IMG/VR virus record: IMGVR_UViG_3300048585_000062
Location: 1 to 23,327 of that record
Direction: 5' to 3' (one strand)
DNA: 23,327 nt
From: a virus
The notes below the pieces were generated by a model. It was not told where the DNA came from and made no database searches. It saw only the letters and a list, made by a program, of their open reading frames with translations. Each line of letters opens with the position of its first letter. Position 1 is the first letter of the stretch. The translations under genes were made by a program, and so were the position numbers. Below, one piece after another: positions 8,788 through 13,688 of this stretch.

Positions 8788-9516
8788 TTACTCTCCGAAG
8801 GTTTTCTTCGCCCACAAGTGAAAAGTGTGTGGGAACACTTCACCAACAATGTTGGCTACAGCGTCAGCGTACACCCGTATCTCGTCCTGGGCATTAGGGG
8901 CACACCGCAAAGTCATGAACCCCAACCAGTTGCGCAGGTTGGCTGAAGCTCGCATTCGAGAGTAGCGCCCTACGGGCAGCAGCACTCGAGCGAGTTCCTT
9001 GGGCACACCGTCTGCCAAGGCATCCTGGTAGTGCCGTTCGTCCTCGGCGTACACAGCCTTCAGCTTGCGTTGGAAAGCCTTGGCTCCAACCTCATCGAGT
9101 TCAGGAGCGCCTTTGACGGCACCGGCCTGCTTGTTGGCATCATTTTTCTTGAGCAGGCGTTCGATGGTGGGAACGTAGTTGAGGTCGGGTAACGGAGCGT
9201 AACGAGCACTCATCTCGTTGTACGACTGCGTACGGTGGCGATGCCATTCCCGGAAGACGAACATGGGAGCCTGCACTTCGATGACCATGCCAGCAAACTC
9301 GAACGGTGTGCTGTGGTCGTTGTTGTACAGGTACTTGAGCAGCTTCTCGTCCTGTTCCCAGCCACGGAAGCTGCCCTGCGTGCTCTGACGAGCGGCTTCA
9401 ATGATGCCTACCTCGTAATCCCAGTGATCAGGGTCTTCGCCCATGTCACCTTCGGTACCAACGCCCCAGGCTTCGATGAACTTCACGTAGCCGTGGTCGA
9501 GGACATCGATCTTCAT
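8788..9516 (-). CDS. thyX: Flavin-dependent thymidylate synthase ThyX
   Basis: 242 residues, normal for the family. The ThyX signature RHRxxSxNExSxRY is complete (R93 HR TQ S98 Y N100 E101 M S103 A R105 Y106), preceded by the FREW segment and by HSTPFE at 68-73; LRNWLGFMTLR near residue 200 matches the C-terminal substrate-binding and catalytic Arg region. It methylates dUMP to dTMP using methylenetetrahydrofolate and FAD/NADPH. GGAG lies 7 nt before the ATG, and the start overlaps the preceding small membrane gene by ATGA. With the dUTPase and dCMP deaminase in this window it gives the phage its own dTMP route. Confidence 0.97.
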   Translation of the reverse strand: MKIDVLDHGYVKFIEAWGVGTEGDMGEDPDHWDYEVGIIEAARQSTQGSFRGWEQDEKLLKYLYNNDHSTPFEFAGMVIEVQAPMFVFREWHRHRTQSYNEMSARYAPLPDLNYVPTIERLLKKNDANKQAGAVKGAPELDEVGAKAFQRKLKAVYAEDERHYQDALADGVPKELARVLLPVGRYSRMRASANLRNWLGFMTLRCAPNAQDEIRVYADAVANIVGEVFPHTFHLWAKKTFGE

Positions 9517-9652: not shown

Positions 9653-10033
9653 TCAGGTCCAGAGAATGTGAGTGGTCTTGCCGCCCGTTCCTTCGGTGTC
9701 TTCCACCTTGAAGCCACGCTTCTCCAGGGTCTGGCGCACGGCCGGCGAGAGTTCACCAGTCACCTGCATGACACTGTTGCCCTGACGAGCGTTGAGAAGG
9801 ATTCCCATGAGCATGGCGGTCAGGCTGTTGGCCTGGATGCCGTCCGGGGACGTGAGCATGGCTGCGTCCTTGGCGGTGAGGCTGATGGCTGCCGATGCGA
9901 AGGGCATGGCATGGAACAGCTCGAACACCTGCAGCGCCGTAGCCTGGTTGCGCTCGTGCAACATGTTCATGTCGGAAGCGATGGCATGGACATCTTCGTT
10001 GATGCCGAGCCACTTGCGGAGAAGGTTCTTCAT
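9653..10033 (-). CDS. Protein of unknown function (126 aa)
   Basis: Starts MKNLLRKWLGI and overlaps the upstream gene by ATGA. Residues 20-60 are helical with many Ala and Met (NMLHERNQATALQVFELFHA, ASAAISLTAKDAAML); the C-terminal part (LSPAVRQTLEKRGFKVEDTE) has the look of a small alpha/beta tail, helix then strand, as in proteins that pair a conserved KRGF turn. No known catalytic motif and no membrane segment. Function not recognised. Confidence 0.6.
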   Translation of the reverse strand: MKNLLRKWLGINEDVHAIASDMNMLHERNQATALQVFELFHAMPFASAAISLTAKDAAMLTSPDGIQANSLTAMLMGILLNARQGNSVMQVTGELSPAVRQTLEKRGFKVEDTEGTGGKTTHILWT

Positions 10034-10821
10034 GGGTGGTTATCCGGATTGATGATGACTTCGACGAACCCCGTCGCTGGGTTGTGAGTCTCAGGCAGAA
10101 CCTGGACTCGGGTAACTGAAAAATCGAAATAGGGATAGGAGATCTCGTCCTGTGGACGTGGGCCGAAGCCGGAGAAAGCATACATCCGAAAGGCGTACGG
10201 AATCTTGTTGATCTTCGAATACCCCTGTTCCTGCAGCAGTTCAGCCATGAGCGTGGTGTCACCGAACAGGCGCACGTACCACTTCTCATCGACATTCACA
10301 ATGCTGCGGGCAATCACTTCAGCGCCGCCTGGAGGATAGAGCGTGGCCAAAGCCAGCTTGTTCTGTGGATGAACGTAGCAGCGTACCAGATCGGAGCTGG
10401 TCATACAGCTCTTCACATGGTCATCTGCATACACGTTCACCCACTGCTCAGGCGTCGTGTAGAACTCGAGCCGGAACTTGCTGAGTGTCGTGATGGCCGC
10501 ATCCAGTTCTTCCTTGGGCAGGAAGTTGTTGAACAGCGCGAAGAATTTGTCCACCGGTAGGCTGCGGTTGGCCTCTTCATACAGGAAGAAGCTGCGCAGG
10601 TCCGGCCAGTACTTGATGTTCTTGCGCTTATGTGGATCCATCACGGCCAGCGTCACGAGGCGGATGGGTTCAGGAATGGCACTCGGGCAGTTGCCAAGTG
10701 CATCGAGGTAGTACTGCGCCCAATCGGGACTGCCGTCTTCTCGCTTTCCTTCCCGTCGAACGAGACGGAGGATGGCTTCCTTGGATGGGATCTTGGAGTG
10801 CTTCTTCTTGAACCGCTTCAT
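10030..10821 (-). CDS. Unknown phage protein, paralog A of the pair flanking the peptidase (263 aa)
   Basis: Basic N-terminus (KRFKKKHSK), then a long helical region, then a C-terminal domain with the pattern W-V-N-V-Y ... SCM ... VRCYVHPQNKLALA ... ARSIVN ... YVRLFG ... PYFD. The same string of motifs in the same order occurs in the gene at 11770-12591, so the two are paralogs. SCM followed by Y-x-H-P and LALA, then an Arg-containing strand, recalls an uncharacterised family in other phages (memory only). GAGG is 8 nt upstream, and the ATG overlaps the peptidase stop. It lacks the CxxC zinc-binding pairs present in its paralog. Function unknown. Confidence 0.72.
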   Translation of the reverse strand: MKRFKKKHSKIPSKEAILRLVRREGKREDGSPDWAQYYLDALGNCPSAIPEPIRLVTLAVMDPHKRKNIKYWPDLRSFFLYEEANRSLPVDKFFALFNNFLPKEELDAAITTLSKFRLEFYTTPEQWVNVYADDHVKSCMTSSDLVRCYVHPQNKLALATLYPPGGAEVIARSIVNVDEKWYVRLFGDTTLMAELLQEQGYSKINKIPYAFRMYAFSGFGPRPQDEISYPYFDFSVTRVQVLPETHNPATGFVEVIINPDNHP

Positions 10822-11777
10822 CCTTCGAACCTCTTATAGATCCGCTGCGCCAGTCTTAGAGCCTTGTCACGCAGATCATTAGGCAGTACGTCAGCGTAGT
10901 CGAACATGAAGTCCGCAAACTGCAGCGGACTCACGTTGAGATCCGGAATGTCGCTGGCAATGCGACTGCTGTCGAACAGCGGAATCGTCGACATGCCGTA
11001 GCGGTTGGTCTCGATTGGATCAGGCACAGGCACCGTGTGATCCAGCTGGCTCCAGTCGGCCATCAACAGCTGGTCACGGAGTTTCTCGATGTACGCCTTG
11101 TTGAGTGTTTCCTTCTTCGTGTGCTCGTTCAGGTAGCCCACGGAGACGTTGGTGCAGTTGTGTACGAGGTGGAAGAACTCGGCAGTGTCCGTGTACACCC
11201 CAGTCGGATCGAGCTTGTGCCCCATCTTCAGAATGGATGCCAAGCTTCGGCCGAACTCGTCACTGCACCCACGGCCAGCGCCTTGGTGCGTAATAATGCT
11301 TTCGGTGCCACGCCGATCGAATGCGATGGCACAACGCACGCTCTCGAAGATGTCCGGGCGATGCTTAGCGCAGTAGCTCGAGCCAATGCCGCCACGCTCT
11401 TCTCCACGGAAGAAGGCGTAGATTCCCGGAACACCGTAGTCGATCATGTGCAGCATCAGCCAATTGCCGGCTGCGTCGTCAGCACCCAAGGGCTGAGCAT
11501 CCGTCTTGCCGTACAGCCCATTGCTGAACGTGATCTCCTGATAAATGTCAGCGTGGTTCATGTGCACTGTGTCGATATGACTAGTGAACATGATTTCGCT
11601 CTTGCCGACATAGACCAAGAAGGCCATCACTTCATTGGCAGTCGAGGCGATGAGCGTCGGGTTCAACGGCAGAATGTGATCATGGATGTACTGACGCTCA
11701 CCCACGGAATTGTGGGCACGTCGATACATCAACAACTCATCCAGCCGTGGGACGGCACGCTTGAGGGCTCTAGTCAT
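10818..11777 (-). CDS. M28/M20-like zinc metallopeptidase
   Basis: 319 residues from ATG 11777, chosen because GGAG lies 6 nt upstream and because upstream ATGs (to 11870) sit inside the previous gene; the two genes overlap by 8 nt. Co-catalytic zinc residues are recognisable: SHIDTVH (H67, D69), LGADDAAGN (D101), FRGEERGGIGS (E126, E127), AFDRRG (D154) and a late NEHTKKE (H219). This order fits M28-type (Y/aminopeptidase-like) better than M20 because of GADDxxG and EExGxxGS. There is no signal peptide, so it acts in the host cytoplasm. Known relatives are aminopeptidases and deacetylase-like amidohydrolases. The phage substrate is unknown; it could be a peptide, an acylated metabolite or a glutamyl adduct. 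It is bracketed by two paralogous genes. Confidence 0.85.
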   Translation of the reverse strand: MTRALKRAVPRLDELLMYRRAHNSVGERQYIHDHILPLNPTLIASTANEVMAFLVYVGKSEIMFTSHIDTVHMNHADIYQEITFSNGLYGKTDAQPLGADDAAGNWLMLHMIDYGVPGIYAFFRGEERGGIGSSYCAKHRPDIFESVRCAIAFDRRGTESIITHQGAGRGCSDEFGRSLASILKMGHKLDPTGVYTDTAEFFHLVHNCTNVSVGYLNEHTKKETLNKAYIEKLRDQLLMADWSQLDHTVPVPDPIETNRYGMSTIPLFDSSRIASDIPDLNVSPLQFADFMFDYADVLPNDLRDKALRLAQRIYKRFEG

Positions 11778-12591
11778 CACCATCTCCATCTCCGTCCGAG
11801 CAGTGATTGCACTCTGGCTCTTCGGAGTAGCTGAGCATGAAGTAGCCACCAATCGTGGCTTCCTTGCCATCGATCAAGGTGACATCGTTGCCGGTGGAAC
11901 CATCAAAGTAGGGACCGACTTCCACCTCATTGTCGCAGTAGCGACAGGTGGCATAGCCGATGTAGATGAGTTCATCCCGGAGGGTGTCGTTGTCTTGCCG
12001 GTAACCGGCCTTGTGAAGAGCCGCGACGAAGTAGCCAGCATCCTTTCCGTAGACACGAAGATAGGTCTTCCTTTTCTTGTTGACGATCGTGCGGTGCGTA
12101 ATCTCATAGCCCGTGTCGACATACGCCAGGGCGAGGTTGTTCTTGGGGTGGGCATACTGACGAACGTAGCTACTGCCTTGCATGCAGCTGTGCGGGCCGT
12201 TGTCGTACACCTCGTACCAGCCGTCAGGATTGTCATTCTCGACGAAGTGAAGTGTGGGCAGAAGCTTGCCCATCACTTCCGCTGACCACGCAGCCTGGAT
12301 GTGATCAGGGGCGCAGTTGAGTTGTCGCGCCAGGAACATTTCAGGAGATGTTCGAGTGAGACGGTTGTCCATCAGTGCCTTGACGTTGGCGTAGTACGCC
12401 ACTTTGCCAGGGACGTTGGCACTCATGTGCACCAGTGAAGCGGTCCATACCGGCTTCAGTTCATCGCTCCAGGGGAAACGATGGATGAGTGCCTTGGCTC
12501 GTGCCTTGTAGCACTCAACTTGCTCCAGGCTGGCAAACGCACGTTCCACCTGAAAATTAGGATAGAACGCTGCAGGTGTCTGGCAAAACAT
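11770..12591 (-). CDS. Unknown phage protein with zinc-knuckle tail, paralog B of the peptidase-flanking pair (273 aa)
   Basis: Begins MFCQTPAAFYPN; GGAG lies 7 nt upstream in the 19-nt gap after the tRNA gene. Helical N-terminal half, then WYEVYDNG, SCMQG, VRQYAHPKNNLALA, HRTIVN, YLRVYG and VGPYFDG, matching the order in the gene at 10030-10821. Unlike that paralog it has two CxxC pairs (CRYC at about 217, CNHC near the end), a likely zinc-binding site, and a terminal Gly/Asp run (DGDGDGDD). Function unknown. The gene directly follows the tRNA in the same transcript. Confidence 0.72.
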   Translation of the reverse strand: MFCQTPAAFYPNFQVERAFASLEQVECYKARAKALIHRFPWSDELKPVWTASLVHMSANVPGKVAYYANVKALMDNRLTRTSPEMFLARQLNCAPDHIQAAWSAEVMGKLLPTLHFVENDNPDGWYEVYDNGPHSCMQGSSYVRQYAHPKNNLALAYVDTGYEITHRTIVNKKRKTYLRVYGKDAGYFVAALHKAGYRQDNDTLRDELIYIGYATCRYCDNEVEVGPYFDGSTGNDVTLIDGKEATIGGYFMLSYSEEPECNHCSDGDGDGDD

Positions 12592-12610: not shown

Positions 12611-12719
12611 TGGGGCTCCTACCAGGATTCGAACCTGGGTTTCCCTGCTGAGAGCAGGATGTCCTTGATGCCCGCTGGGGTGATCGCAGCGGGACATCGG
12701 GCCTCTAGACGATAGGAGC
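12611..12719 (-). tRNA. tRNA-Glu (anticodon CTC) with a 33-nt hairpin insertion in the D-loop
   Basis: Read on the minus strand: acceptor stem GCTCCTA (12719-12713) pairs perfectly with TAGGAGC (12621-12615), followed by C73 and an encoded CCA (12613-12611). T-arm CCAGG-TTCGAAT-CCTGG. Anticodon arm TCCTG-CTCTCAG-CAGGG with T33 and anticodon CTC at 12652-12650, reading GAG. The D-arm text TCGTCTAGAGGCCC and later AGGACA equal those of E. coli tRNA-Glu, giving D-stem GTCT/GGAC, but 33 nt separate them. The total is 109 nt including CCA, 33 more than the usual 76. The insert is a self-complementary hairpin. It is embedded in the message, 7 nt after one ORF and 19 nt before the next, so it must be cut out by host RNases. 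Functional or pseudogene status is open. Confidence 0.85.
12667..12698 (-). repeat. Hairpin inserted in the tRNA-Glu D-loop
   Basis: Minus strand: GATG-T-CCCGCTG, nine-nt loop CGATCACCC, then CAGCGGG-CATC. Seven plus four base pairs with one bulged T. Removing this block plus one A restores a normal 76-nt tRNA-Glu. Confidence 0.85.
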
Positions 12720-12726
12720 GCGTTGA

Positions 12727-13260
12727 TCAGATGCTGTCGAGGTGAGCCACGAGAGCTGTGAGCGTGGCTTCTGCCTGCTCGATCTCGGCAATCAGCGACT
12801 TCGGCTGGTGCTTGATCTTGCGGAGCTTCTCGATGCGCTGCTCTTCGACTTCGATGGCAGCGTACACCTCGTCCTTCGGGAGCTTGGTGACATCGGTGCC
12901 ATTGAGCAGGTGAACGGTGTTGAACTTGAGGGACATGGACTTCTCCTTGAACGGGTAGGGAACAACTGGAACCTTGATGGGAATCTTGAGCCCACCAGCC
13001 GTGTACTCAGGGGGAGGGCTCATCTGGTCGGTCGTGTAGCGCCAGAGGAAGTACGCTCGCAGGTAAGCCTGCTGATCCATCGACAAGTCTGCCGCTGGGC
13101 GATAGAAGTACTTCATCGCGTTGTAGAAGTGGGTGTCGTCCGAACGACGAACCTGCGGAATCTTGGCGAGGTTGGGTGTGTTGCACCACCTGTACCATCG
13201 CTTGTCATTCTCCAACGACAGCTGCACGTCCTCGAGCAAGTGATCGGGACTTGCGTACAT
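12727..13260 (-). CDS. Protein of unknown function, possibly two products (177 aa)
   Basis: The start at 13260 (MYASPDHLLED) is chosen over 13287 (which overlaps the HNH stop as TAATG) because AGGAG lies 6 nt before it. Residues 1-108 are aromatic-rich (KRWYRWCNTP, FYNAMKYFYRP, AYFLWRYTT) with no known motif. Residues from the internal Met at 12936 (MSLKFNTVHLLNGTD) form a separate helical-hairpin segment (AAIEVEEQRIEKLRKIKH, LIAEIEQAEATLTALVAH) of a kind that many phages encode as a stand-alone small protein. A strong internal Shine-Dalgarno precedes that Met, so a shorter 69-residue product is likely made too. The stop lies 7 nt before the tRNA. Confidence 0.65.
   Translation of the reverse strand: MYASPDHLLEDVQLSLENDKRWYRWCNTPNLAKIPQVRRSDDTHFYNAMKYFYRPAADLSMDQQAYLRAYFLWRYTTDQMSPPPEYTAGGLKIPIKVPVVPYPFKEKSMSLKFNTVHLLNGTDVTKLPKDEVYAAIEVEEQRIEKLRKIKHQPKSLIAEIEQAEATLTALVAHLDSI
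12934..12948 (-). promoter_or_regulatory. Internal ribosome-binding site and in-frame start
   Basis: Minus strand AAGGAG, six-nt spacer AAGTCC, ATG at 12936-12934 within the larger ORF. It would give a 69-residue C-terminal product. Confidence 0.5.
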
Positions 13261-13286
13261 GATTTTCTCCTGAAGATTCACGGACA

Positions 13287-13688
13287 TTAGGAAGAAGCCA
13301 ACTTGTCCTCTGCCGTCTTGGCATCGTGACAGTCGGTGCAGAGCACCTGAAGGCCGCTGACTGGAACCAGCAGCCTGCTCCAGGCTTCTTCAATGGAGAG
13401 TCCGTCGATGTTGCCCCAAGGCACGATGTGGTCAACGCTGACCTGCTTGCCTGAGAAGTACTCCGTGCAGCGGGCACATTGATACTCGAACCGCTGACGC
13501 GGGTTAGTACCAATGTACGGACGCTTGGATCTCTGCAGGCATTGGGCTCTCGGGGGCCACTTCACCCAAGCTCTTCGCATTGCGGAGCGTATGAAGGAGC
13601 GATAGCGTGAGGTCGTCCATGCTGGATGAGATGGACACGGATCCACATTCGCTTTCTTGCGCCTGGGGGCGGATTTCTTCTTGGCCAT
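13287..13688 (-). CDS. HNH endonuclease
   Basis: 133 residues. Two Cys pairs (CARC, C71/C74; CTDC, C117/C120) hold a structural zinc around the HNH core VDHIVPWG (D86, H87) and the closing CHDAKT (H121). The upstream part (SFIRSAMRRAWVKWPP, then SKRPYIGTNPRQRFEYQC) is typical of small free-standing phage HNH nucleases. The first 185 nt overlap the end of the previous gene in another frame, and no clear ribosome-binding site precedes ATG 13688; a later start such as the Met at about residue 37 is possible but would remove family-typical sequence. The role may be homing or DNA processing; there is no sign that it interrupts a host gene. Confidence 0.88.
   Translation of the reverse strand: MAKKKSAPRRKKANVDPCPSHPAWTTSRYRSFIRSAMRRAWVKWPPRAQCLQRSKRPYIGTNPRQRFEYQCARCTEYFSGKQVSVDHIVPWGNIDGLSIEEAWSRLLVPVSGLQVLCTDCHDAKTAEDKLASS

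Follow-up and report, generated by a model that had tools for sequence, protein, structure and literature searches.

During infection, host defences cut tRNAs, and phage tRNAs replace them and differ from them at the points of contact (PMC10264068, PMC12409363). Sequence changes are predicted to let phage tRNAs evade defence nucleases (PMC10264068). In a model of AriB, the enzyme touches U16-U17 of the D-loop, and its cleavage is impaired by a U16C change (PMC12409363). Phage tRNAs are increasingly seen as parts of counter-defence, and work to date has dealt with point changes, chiefly ones that affect the anticodon arm. Known defence-escaping phage tRNAs (T5 against PARIS AriB, mycobacteriophage against VapC) share with the tRNA described here an alteration from the host form, possibly directed against nucleases. 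However, they carry point changes, whereas the putative escape of the present tRNA would rest on a whole added arm.

An extra stem-loop that leaves the tRNA core is also found in class II tRNAs (Leu, Ser, Tyr), although their long variable arm lies between the anticodon and T stems, while the present arm lies in the D-loop. Additional sequence within the D-loop of a tRNA gene is known from archaeal introns, but they are spliced by an endonuclease at a bulge-helix-bulge motif, and neither was seen for the present tRNA. Ordinary phage and bacterial tRNA-Glu have in common with it the cloverleaf, the Glu anticodon, the GTCT/GGAC D-stem, A46, the absence of nucleotide 47, and CCA. In contrast to their D-loop of about 7–12 nt, its D-loop measures 42 nt and contains an 11-bp hairpin; it further differs in C34 and C73, and its relatives differ in C37.

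The tRNA was located in a window of 23,327 bases, which is the whole stretch of DNA analysed and comes from an uncultivated virus record. Judged by its primase and replication genes, the window is a Schitoviridae-like (N4-like) phage. The primase is 48–49% identical over 99% of its length to those of Achromobacter, Pseudomonas, and E. coli N4-like phages, including N4, and the primase, exonuclease, polymerase, and helicase match phage-replication PHROGs (phrog_2135, 2139, 17, and 325). The giant virion RNA polymerase of this family is not encoded within the 23-kb window. The features of the locus are listed in Table 1.

Table 1. Features of the tRNA-Glu locus, with positions in the window.
Feature	Position	Strand	Basis
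tRNA-Glu(CUC) gene with D-loop hairpin and encoded CCA, 109 nt	12611..12719	minus	sequence and fold
Expanded D-loop, 42 nt (normal 7–12 nt); A14, G18G19, and A21 kept	12665..12706	minus	
D-loop hairpin, GATG-(U)-CCCGCTG / 9-nt loop / CAGCGGG-CATC	12667..12698	minus	RNA fold
D-stem 3′ strand GGAC, partner GTCT at 12707-12710; U11-A24 and U13-G22 kept	12661..12664	minus	
Anticodon CTC in anticodon loop CTCTCAG, A37	12650..12652	minus	
p11770, conserved gene directly downstream of the tRNA, no Pfam match	11770..12591	minus	
M28-type peptidase, conserved neighbour	10818..11870	minus	
HNH endonuclease, immediately upstream of the tRNA in three relatives	13287..13688	minus	
ORF between HNH and tRNA, in the window only	12727..13287	minus	
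ThyX, end of the conserved neighbourhood	8788..9516	minus	

A sequence-only reading of the window had described a tRNA-Glu with a paired acceptor stem, T-arm, CTC anticodon arm, and encoded CCA, and all of these are present at 12719..12611 on the minus strand. The cloverleaf is complete, with all four stems paired: acceptor stem GCTCCTA/TAGGAGC, D-stem GTCT/GGAC, anticodon arm TCCTG-CTCTCAG-CAGGG, and T-arm CCAGG-TTCGAAT-CCTGG. The variable loop has 4 nt (AAAC), and the discriminator, C73, is unusual. The same reading had placed the hairpin exactly, with its 11-bp stem and nine-nt loop; it had missed C73 and the bulged U, which divides the stem (12698-12667) into 4 and 7 bp.

With the insert in place, no tRNA was reported in the window by either ARAGORN or Rfam. 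After removal of the 33-nt insert, ARAGORN returned a tRNA-Glu(ctc) of 76 nt. Recognition by standard tRNA models, which the tRNA-Glu with its insert did not receive, is a criterion of annotation and not of biology.

Within the window, the hairpin pairs had probabilities of 0.96–1.00 in the RNA ensemble. The 33-nt insert folded at −19.1 kcal/mol, compared to −8.2 ± 2.4 kcal/mol for dinucleotide shuffles (z = −4.5), and none of 200 shuffles folded as well. The canonical D-stem received a probability of 3% in the nearest-neighbour model, a value that reflects a limit of the model, since the insert-free tRNA was misfolded too and tertiary contacts are ignored. The hairpin is inserted between positions 20 and 21, in the naturally length-variable part of tRNA D-loops, so that A14, G18G19, and A21 remain free for elbow contacts.

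Three relatives of the locus were obtained, L012 by a search with p11770 (49% identical) and L187 and L231 by pattern scans; the tRNA-Glu of L187 sits on a 72-kb contig. As far as the contigs reach, all four phages share the order lysozyme, dUTPase, HNH, tRNA-Glu, p11770, M28 peptidase, p10030, and ThyX, and their proteins have diverged to about 50–85% identity. In each of the four tRNA-Glu, a hairpin was present at a matching position, between G18G19 and A21, with a sequence unrelated to the others; this recurrence lay beyond what the sequence-only reading could see. The stem comprises 11 bp in the window, 7 bp in L012, and 10 bp in L187, while that of L231 has about 10 bp and includes a 3′ UU bulge; a bulged U on the 5′ arm occurred in three of the four.

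From phage to phage, both strands of the four closing pairs of the hairpin change, yet pairing is maintained in every case. In the cloverleaf, pairing was kept at 84 of 84 pairs (acceptor, D, anticodon, and T stems) across these four genomes, which are few, with two-sided changes at 11 positions; the D-stem GTCT/GGAC was the only invariant stem. No hairpin-free syntenic relative was found, and a final alignment-based scan gave just distant relatives without the tRNA neighbourhood. In L187, the best-sampled relative, the other three tRNAs of the genome (Pro, Tyr, Ile) are ordinary, and the hairpin is therefore specific to Glu there.

The tRNA-Glu fits cleanly into a 135-nt gap between two ORFs on the same strand. 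The start codon of p11770 follows 20 nt past the CCA end, with an SD-like CGGAG in between; the predicted fold of its product (pLDDT 53) was too low for use. The 186-aa ORF at 12727-13287 is absent from L012, L187, and L231, and searches with it gave no relatives and no domains. The genes p11770 and p10030 are paralogues (~23% identical) on either side of the M28 peptidase (window 10030-12591). Enterobacterial phages with genomes of 42–48 kb, among them phages of Klebsiella and Pectobacterium, carry the M28 peptidase and p11770-like genes as well.

The determinants of E. coli GluRS are U34, U35, C36, A37, U11-A24, U13-G22:A46, and the absence of nucleotide 47, A37 being a strong one (PMC9976931). 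The window tRNA carries U35, C36, A37, U11-A24, U13-G22:A46, no nucleotide 47, and G1-C72. All four syntenic tRNA-Glu have U11-A24 and U13-G22:A46 and lack nucleotide 47, with the GTCT/GGAC D-stem and a 4-nt variable loop (AAAC or AGAC). A Glu anticodon is likewise present in each, CTC in the window and TTC in L012, L187, and L231.

Some features count against a working tRNA-Glu, namely C37 in the three relatives, where the window has A37, and C34 and C73 in the window. With C34, the window anticodon reads GAG only, and this codon is only mildly favoured in the window (174 GAG, 150 GAA), which also counts against a working tRNA. In L231, 49 GAA codons were counted versus 25 GAG, and L012 showed no preference (38 GAA, 36 GAG). 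The anticodon loop CTTTCCG, with C37 instead of A37, was observed in the D-loop-hairpin tRNA-Glu of L012, L187, L231, and L216.

For the wider viral set, IMG/VR was scanned for long D-loops with patterns for two D-arm types and then with a custom cloverleaf scanner. D-loop lengths were bimodal, with several hundred viral tRNAs at 7–12 nt and a second group, of at least about 40 candidates, from 22 nt upwards; only two weak calls, of 17 and 20 nt, fell in between. Some pattern matches were dropped because the underlying sequence was an ordinary tRNA preceded by a fortuitous motif, a tandem duplicate, or an error of assembly. After removal of artefacts and near-duplicates, at least 35 distinct D-loop-expanded viral tRNAs of several isotypes remained, and the extra arm was present in tRNAs of at least about 30 other viral lineages. 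Glu and Arg(UCU) were frequent among them, although these frequencies are no measure of isotype bias, as the Glu pattern was searched separately.

Among the 35 viral cases listed, the part 3′ of GG folded better than 95% of its dinucleotide shuffles in 16 (p ≤ 0.05; 1.75 expected), an excess with a probability of 2.5e-12 by the binomial and 9e-16 by the Fisher test. Apart from the four N4-like phages, few of the listed loci share genes, which suggests that D-loop-expanded viral tRNAs arose many times independently. Another N4-like contig, L055, carries a tRNA-Asp with a D-loop hairpin.

In 84,980 prokaryote species, no bacterial case of a D-loop-expanded tRNA-Glu was found; the pattern gave 14 matches, of which 13 were tandem, fragment, or chance matches and one was an archaeal tRNA (L037). 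Both D-arm patterns were also applied to 398 Pseudomonadota genomes, where no D-loop expansion was found. Each match there could be traced to an ordinary tRNA preceded by a fortuitous motif, to a partial tandem, or to chance. Both prokaryote scans demand exact consensus letters, which rare variants may escape. Among 50,697 named phages, no D-loop-hairpin homologue was recovered when the locus, the tRNA, or the regions around L055, L014, and L103 served as queries. A concatenated query of 17 D-loop-hairpin tRNAs matched mainly normal tRNAs, and no cultured example was found.

No published report of D-loop hairpins in phage tRNAs was found by full-text search, which is weak evidence, with most subscription papers lying outside that search. 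The earlier statement that insertions of this size are not an established class thus holds, both for the literature found and for the searched bacterial genomes, from which they are essentially absent.

We put at about even the chance that the locus encodes a working phage tRNA-Glu whose hairpin is retained as a fifth arm, perhaps as a shield against a tRNA-targeting host defence. The sequence-only reading had offered four options (a functional tRNA bearing an element for shielding or recognition, a mini-intron, a structured regulator, and a decaying gene), and in our assessment the first fits best. The tRNA would be cut out of the operon transcript by RNase P and host 3′ processing enzymes, which would leave the hairpin in place in a mature product of about 109 nt. 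This tRNA-Glu would then be charged by host GluRS and would read GAG.

We infer both the retention of the hairpin in the mature RNA and its function. Projecting from the elbow or D-arm side, it might stand in the way of host factors holding on to the D-loop, tRNA-cleaving defence enzymes being the likeliest of these, and Glu decoding might thereby survive the cutting of host tRNA-Glu; these are the least certain steps. A rigid hairpin next to U16-U17, which AriB is modelled to contact, could obstruct enzymes of this kind. If bulk and rigidity alone matter, the hairpin sequence would be free to change, and a shield that works whatever its sequence fits the finding that the structure is kept and the sequence is not. 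A broader and more tentative proposal, which we regard as possible but somewhat unlikely, is that five-armed tRNAs are a recurrent viral invention, with D-loop hairpins that arose independently in selected tRNAs of unrelated phages and are retained in the mature RNA as a steric shield or as a tag marking phage tRNAs off from host tRNAs during tRNA-targeting immunity.

The strongest rival is a tolerated neutral expansion, in which the tRNA works, the hairpin is harmless, and non-folding inserts are lost as they would wreck the cloverleaf; we judge it rather unlikely. The insert sequences are unrelated even among close relatives, the insertion site is naturally variable, and in some of the viral D-loop inserts the hairpin excess is slight, all of which agree with neutrality. 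However, the hairpin was kept in four of four phages despite protein divergence, with no hairpin-free counterpart, and such inserts recur in viral tRNAs but not in the searched bacterial genomes. It is still less probable that the tRNA is decaying or an assembly error, a reading to which we assign almost no weight. Nothing beyond the missed calls by ARAGORN and Rfam speaks for it, while four independent contigs from different samples have intact cloverleaves. The compensatory changes and the kept pairing of cloverleaf and hairpin argue for a functional structured RNA, and contradict the suggestion of a decaying gene.

Removal of the hairpin as a mini-intron or excised segment, with the halves rejoined to a 76-nt tRNA, would explain why ARAGORN accepts the insert-free version as a normal tRNA-Glu, and each of the four phages has a gene for an HNH endonuclease close to the tRNA. 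It is nevertheless improbable, and this option found no positive support: inserts of 32–33 nt are far below the size of group I or II introns, no Rfam family matched, and the insert ends share no sequence. The archaeal bulge-helix-bulge is also absent, a single bulged nucleotide being present instead of two 3-nt bulges around a 4-bp helix. Inspection of the fold (an 11-bp stem with a lone bulged U) led to rejection of an archaeal-type tRNA intron, and a group I intron was rejected because its catalytic core takes at least about 200 nt, compared to a 33-nt insert and no Rfam match in the window. To our knowledge, the archaeal-type tRNA splicing endonuclease is absent from bacteria. A non-decoding tRNA-like element has a similarly low probability, whether as a decoy that would sequester an enzyme of the host or as a signal for processing or regulation in the interval from HNH to p11770. 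The position in a gap inside the operon, with the SD-like sequence of the next gene right behind CCA, is consistent with such a role, as is C37 in three relatives, a departure from the GluRS determinants. In contrast, the anticodon, CCA, and the augmented D-helix elements persist, as do all stems through compensatory change, and neither a decoy nor punctuation would need a Glu anticodon in four of four phages. The structured regulator of the earlier reading likewise gained no positive support.

The D-loop-arm tRNA thus looks like an overlooked, possibly protective variant of phage tRNA. If the fifth arm is real, it would represent a new way of marking or protecting a tRNA and a new site of insertion tolerated by the ribosome and tRNA enzymes. 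Standard annotation misses or mislabels such genes, so that phage tRNAs are undercounted and in part misnamed.

Several other unusual viral tRNAs were observed. The tRNA genes L043 (1578, minus), L044 (1193, plus), L046 (9942, plus), L048 (9782, plus), and L045 (10285, minus) have intact D and T arms and inserts of 30–50 nt in the anticodon arm; ARAGORN misses them, Rfam scores four as tRNA with long inserts, and they are possible mini-introns. L043, L044, L046, and L048 resemble the window tRNA in carrying an insert missed by ARAGORN, but theirs must be removed or remodelled for decoding, whereas that of the window lies in the D-loop. L097 (2512, plus) and L113 (6567, plus) are tRNA-like; in both, the D-loop is expanded and the anticodon arm closes down to a tiny loop (ATCTGTTCGACAGAT), apparently leaving no usable anticodon.

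A34 anticodons, rarely used by bacteria, were present in the D-loop-expanded viral tRNAs of L059 and L060 (ACT) and of L125 and L138 (ATT). In the D-loop-hairpin tRNA-Glu of L014, L019, and L263, the anticodon stem contains two conserved U-U mismatches; ARAGORN labels those of L014 and L019 as tRNA-Ala, and a distant M28 peptidase relative lies near the tRNA in both. In L008 (4495, minus), L009 (8556, plus), L010 (3386, plus), and others, a normal viral tRNA-Glu is preceded by a conserved stretch, ACCGAAGCCTCTAGTGGTCGCCCAAC, which resembles part of the D-arm.
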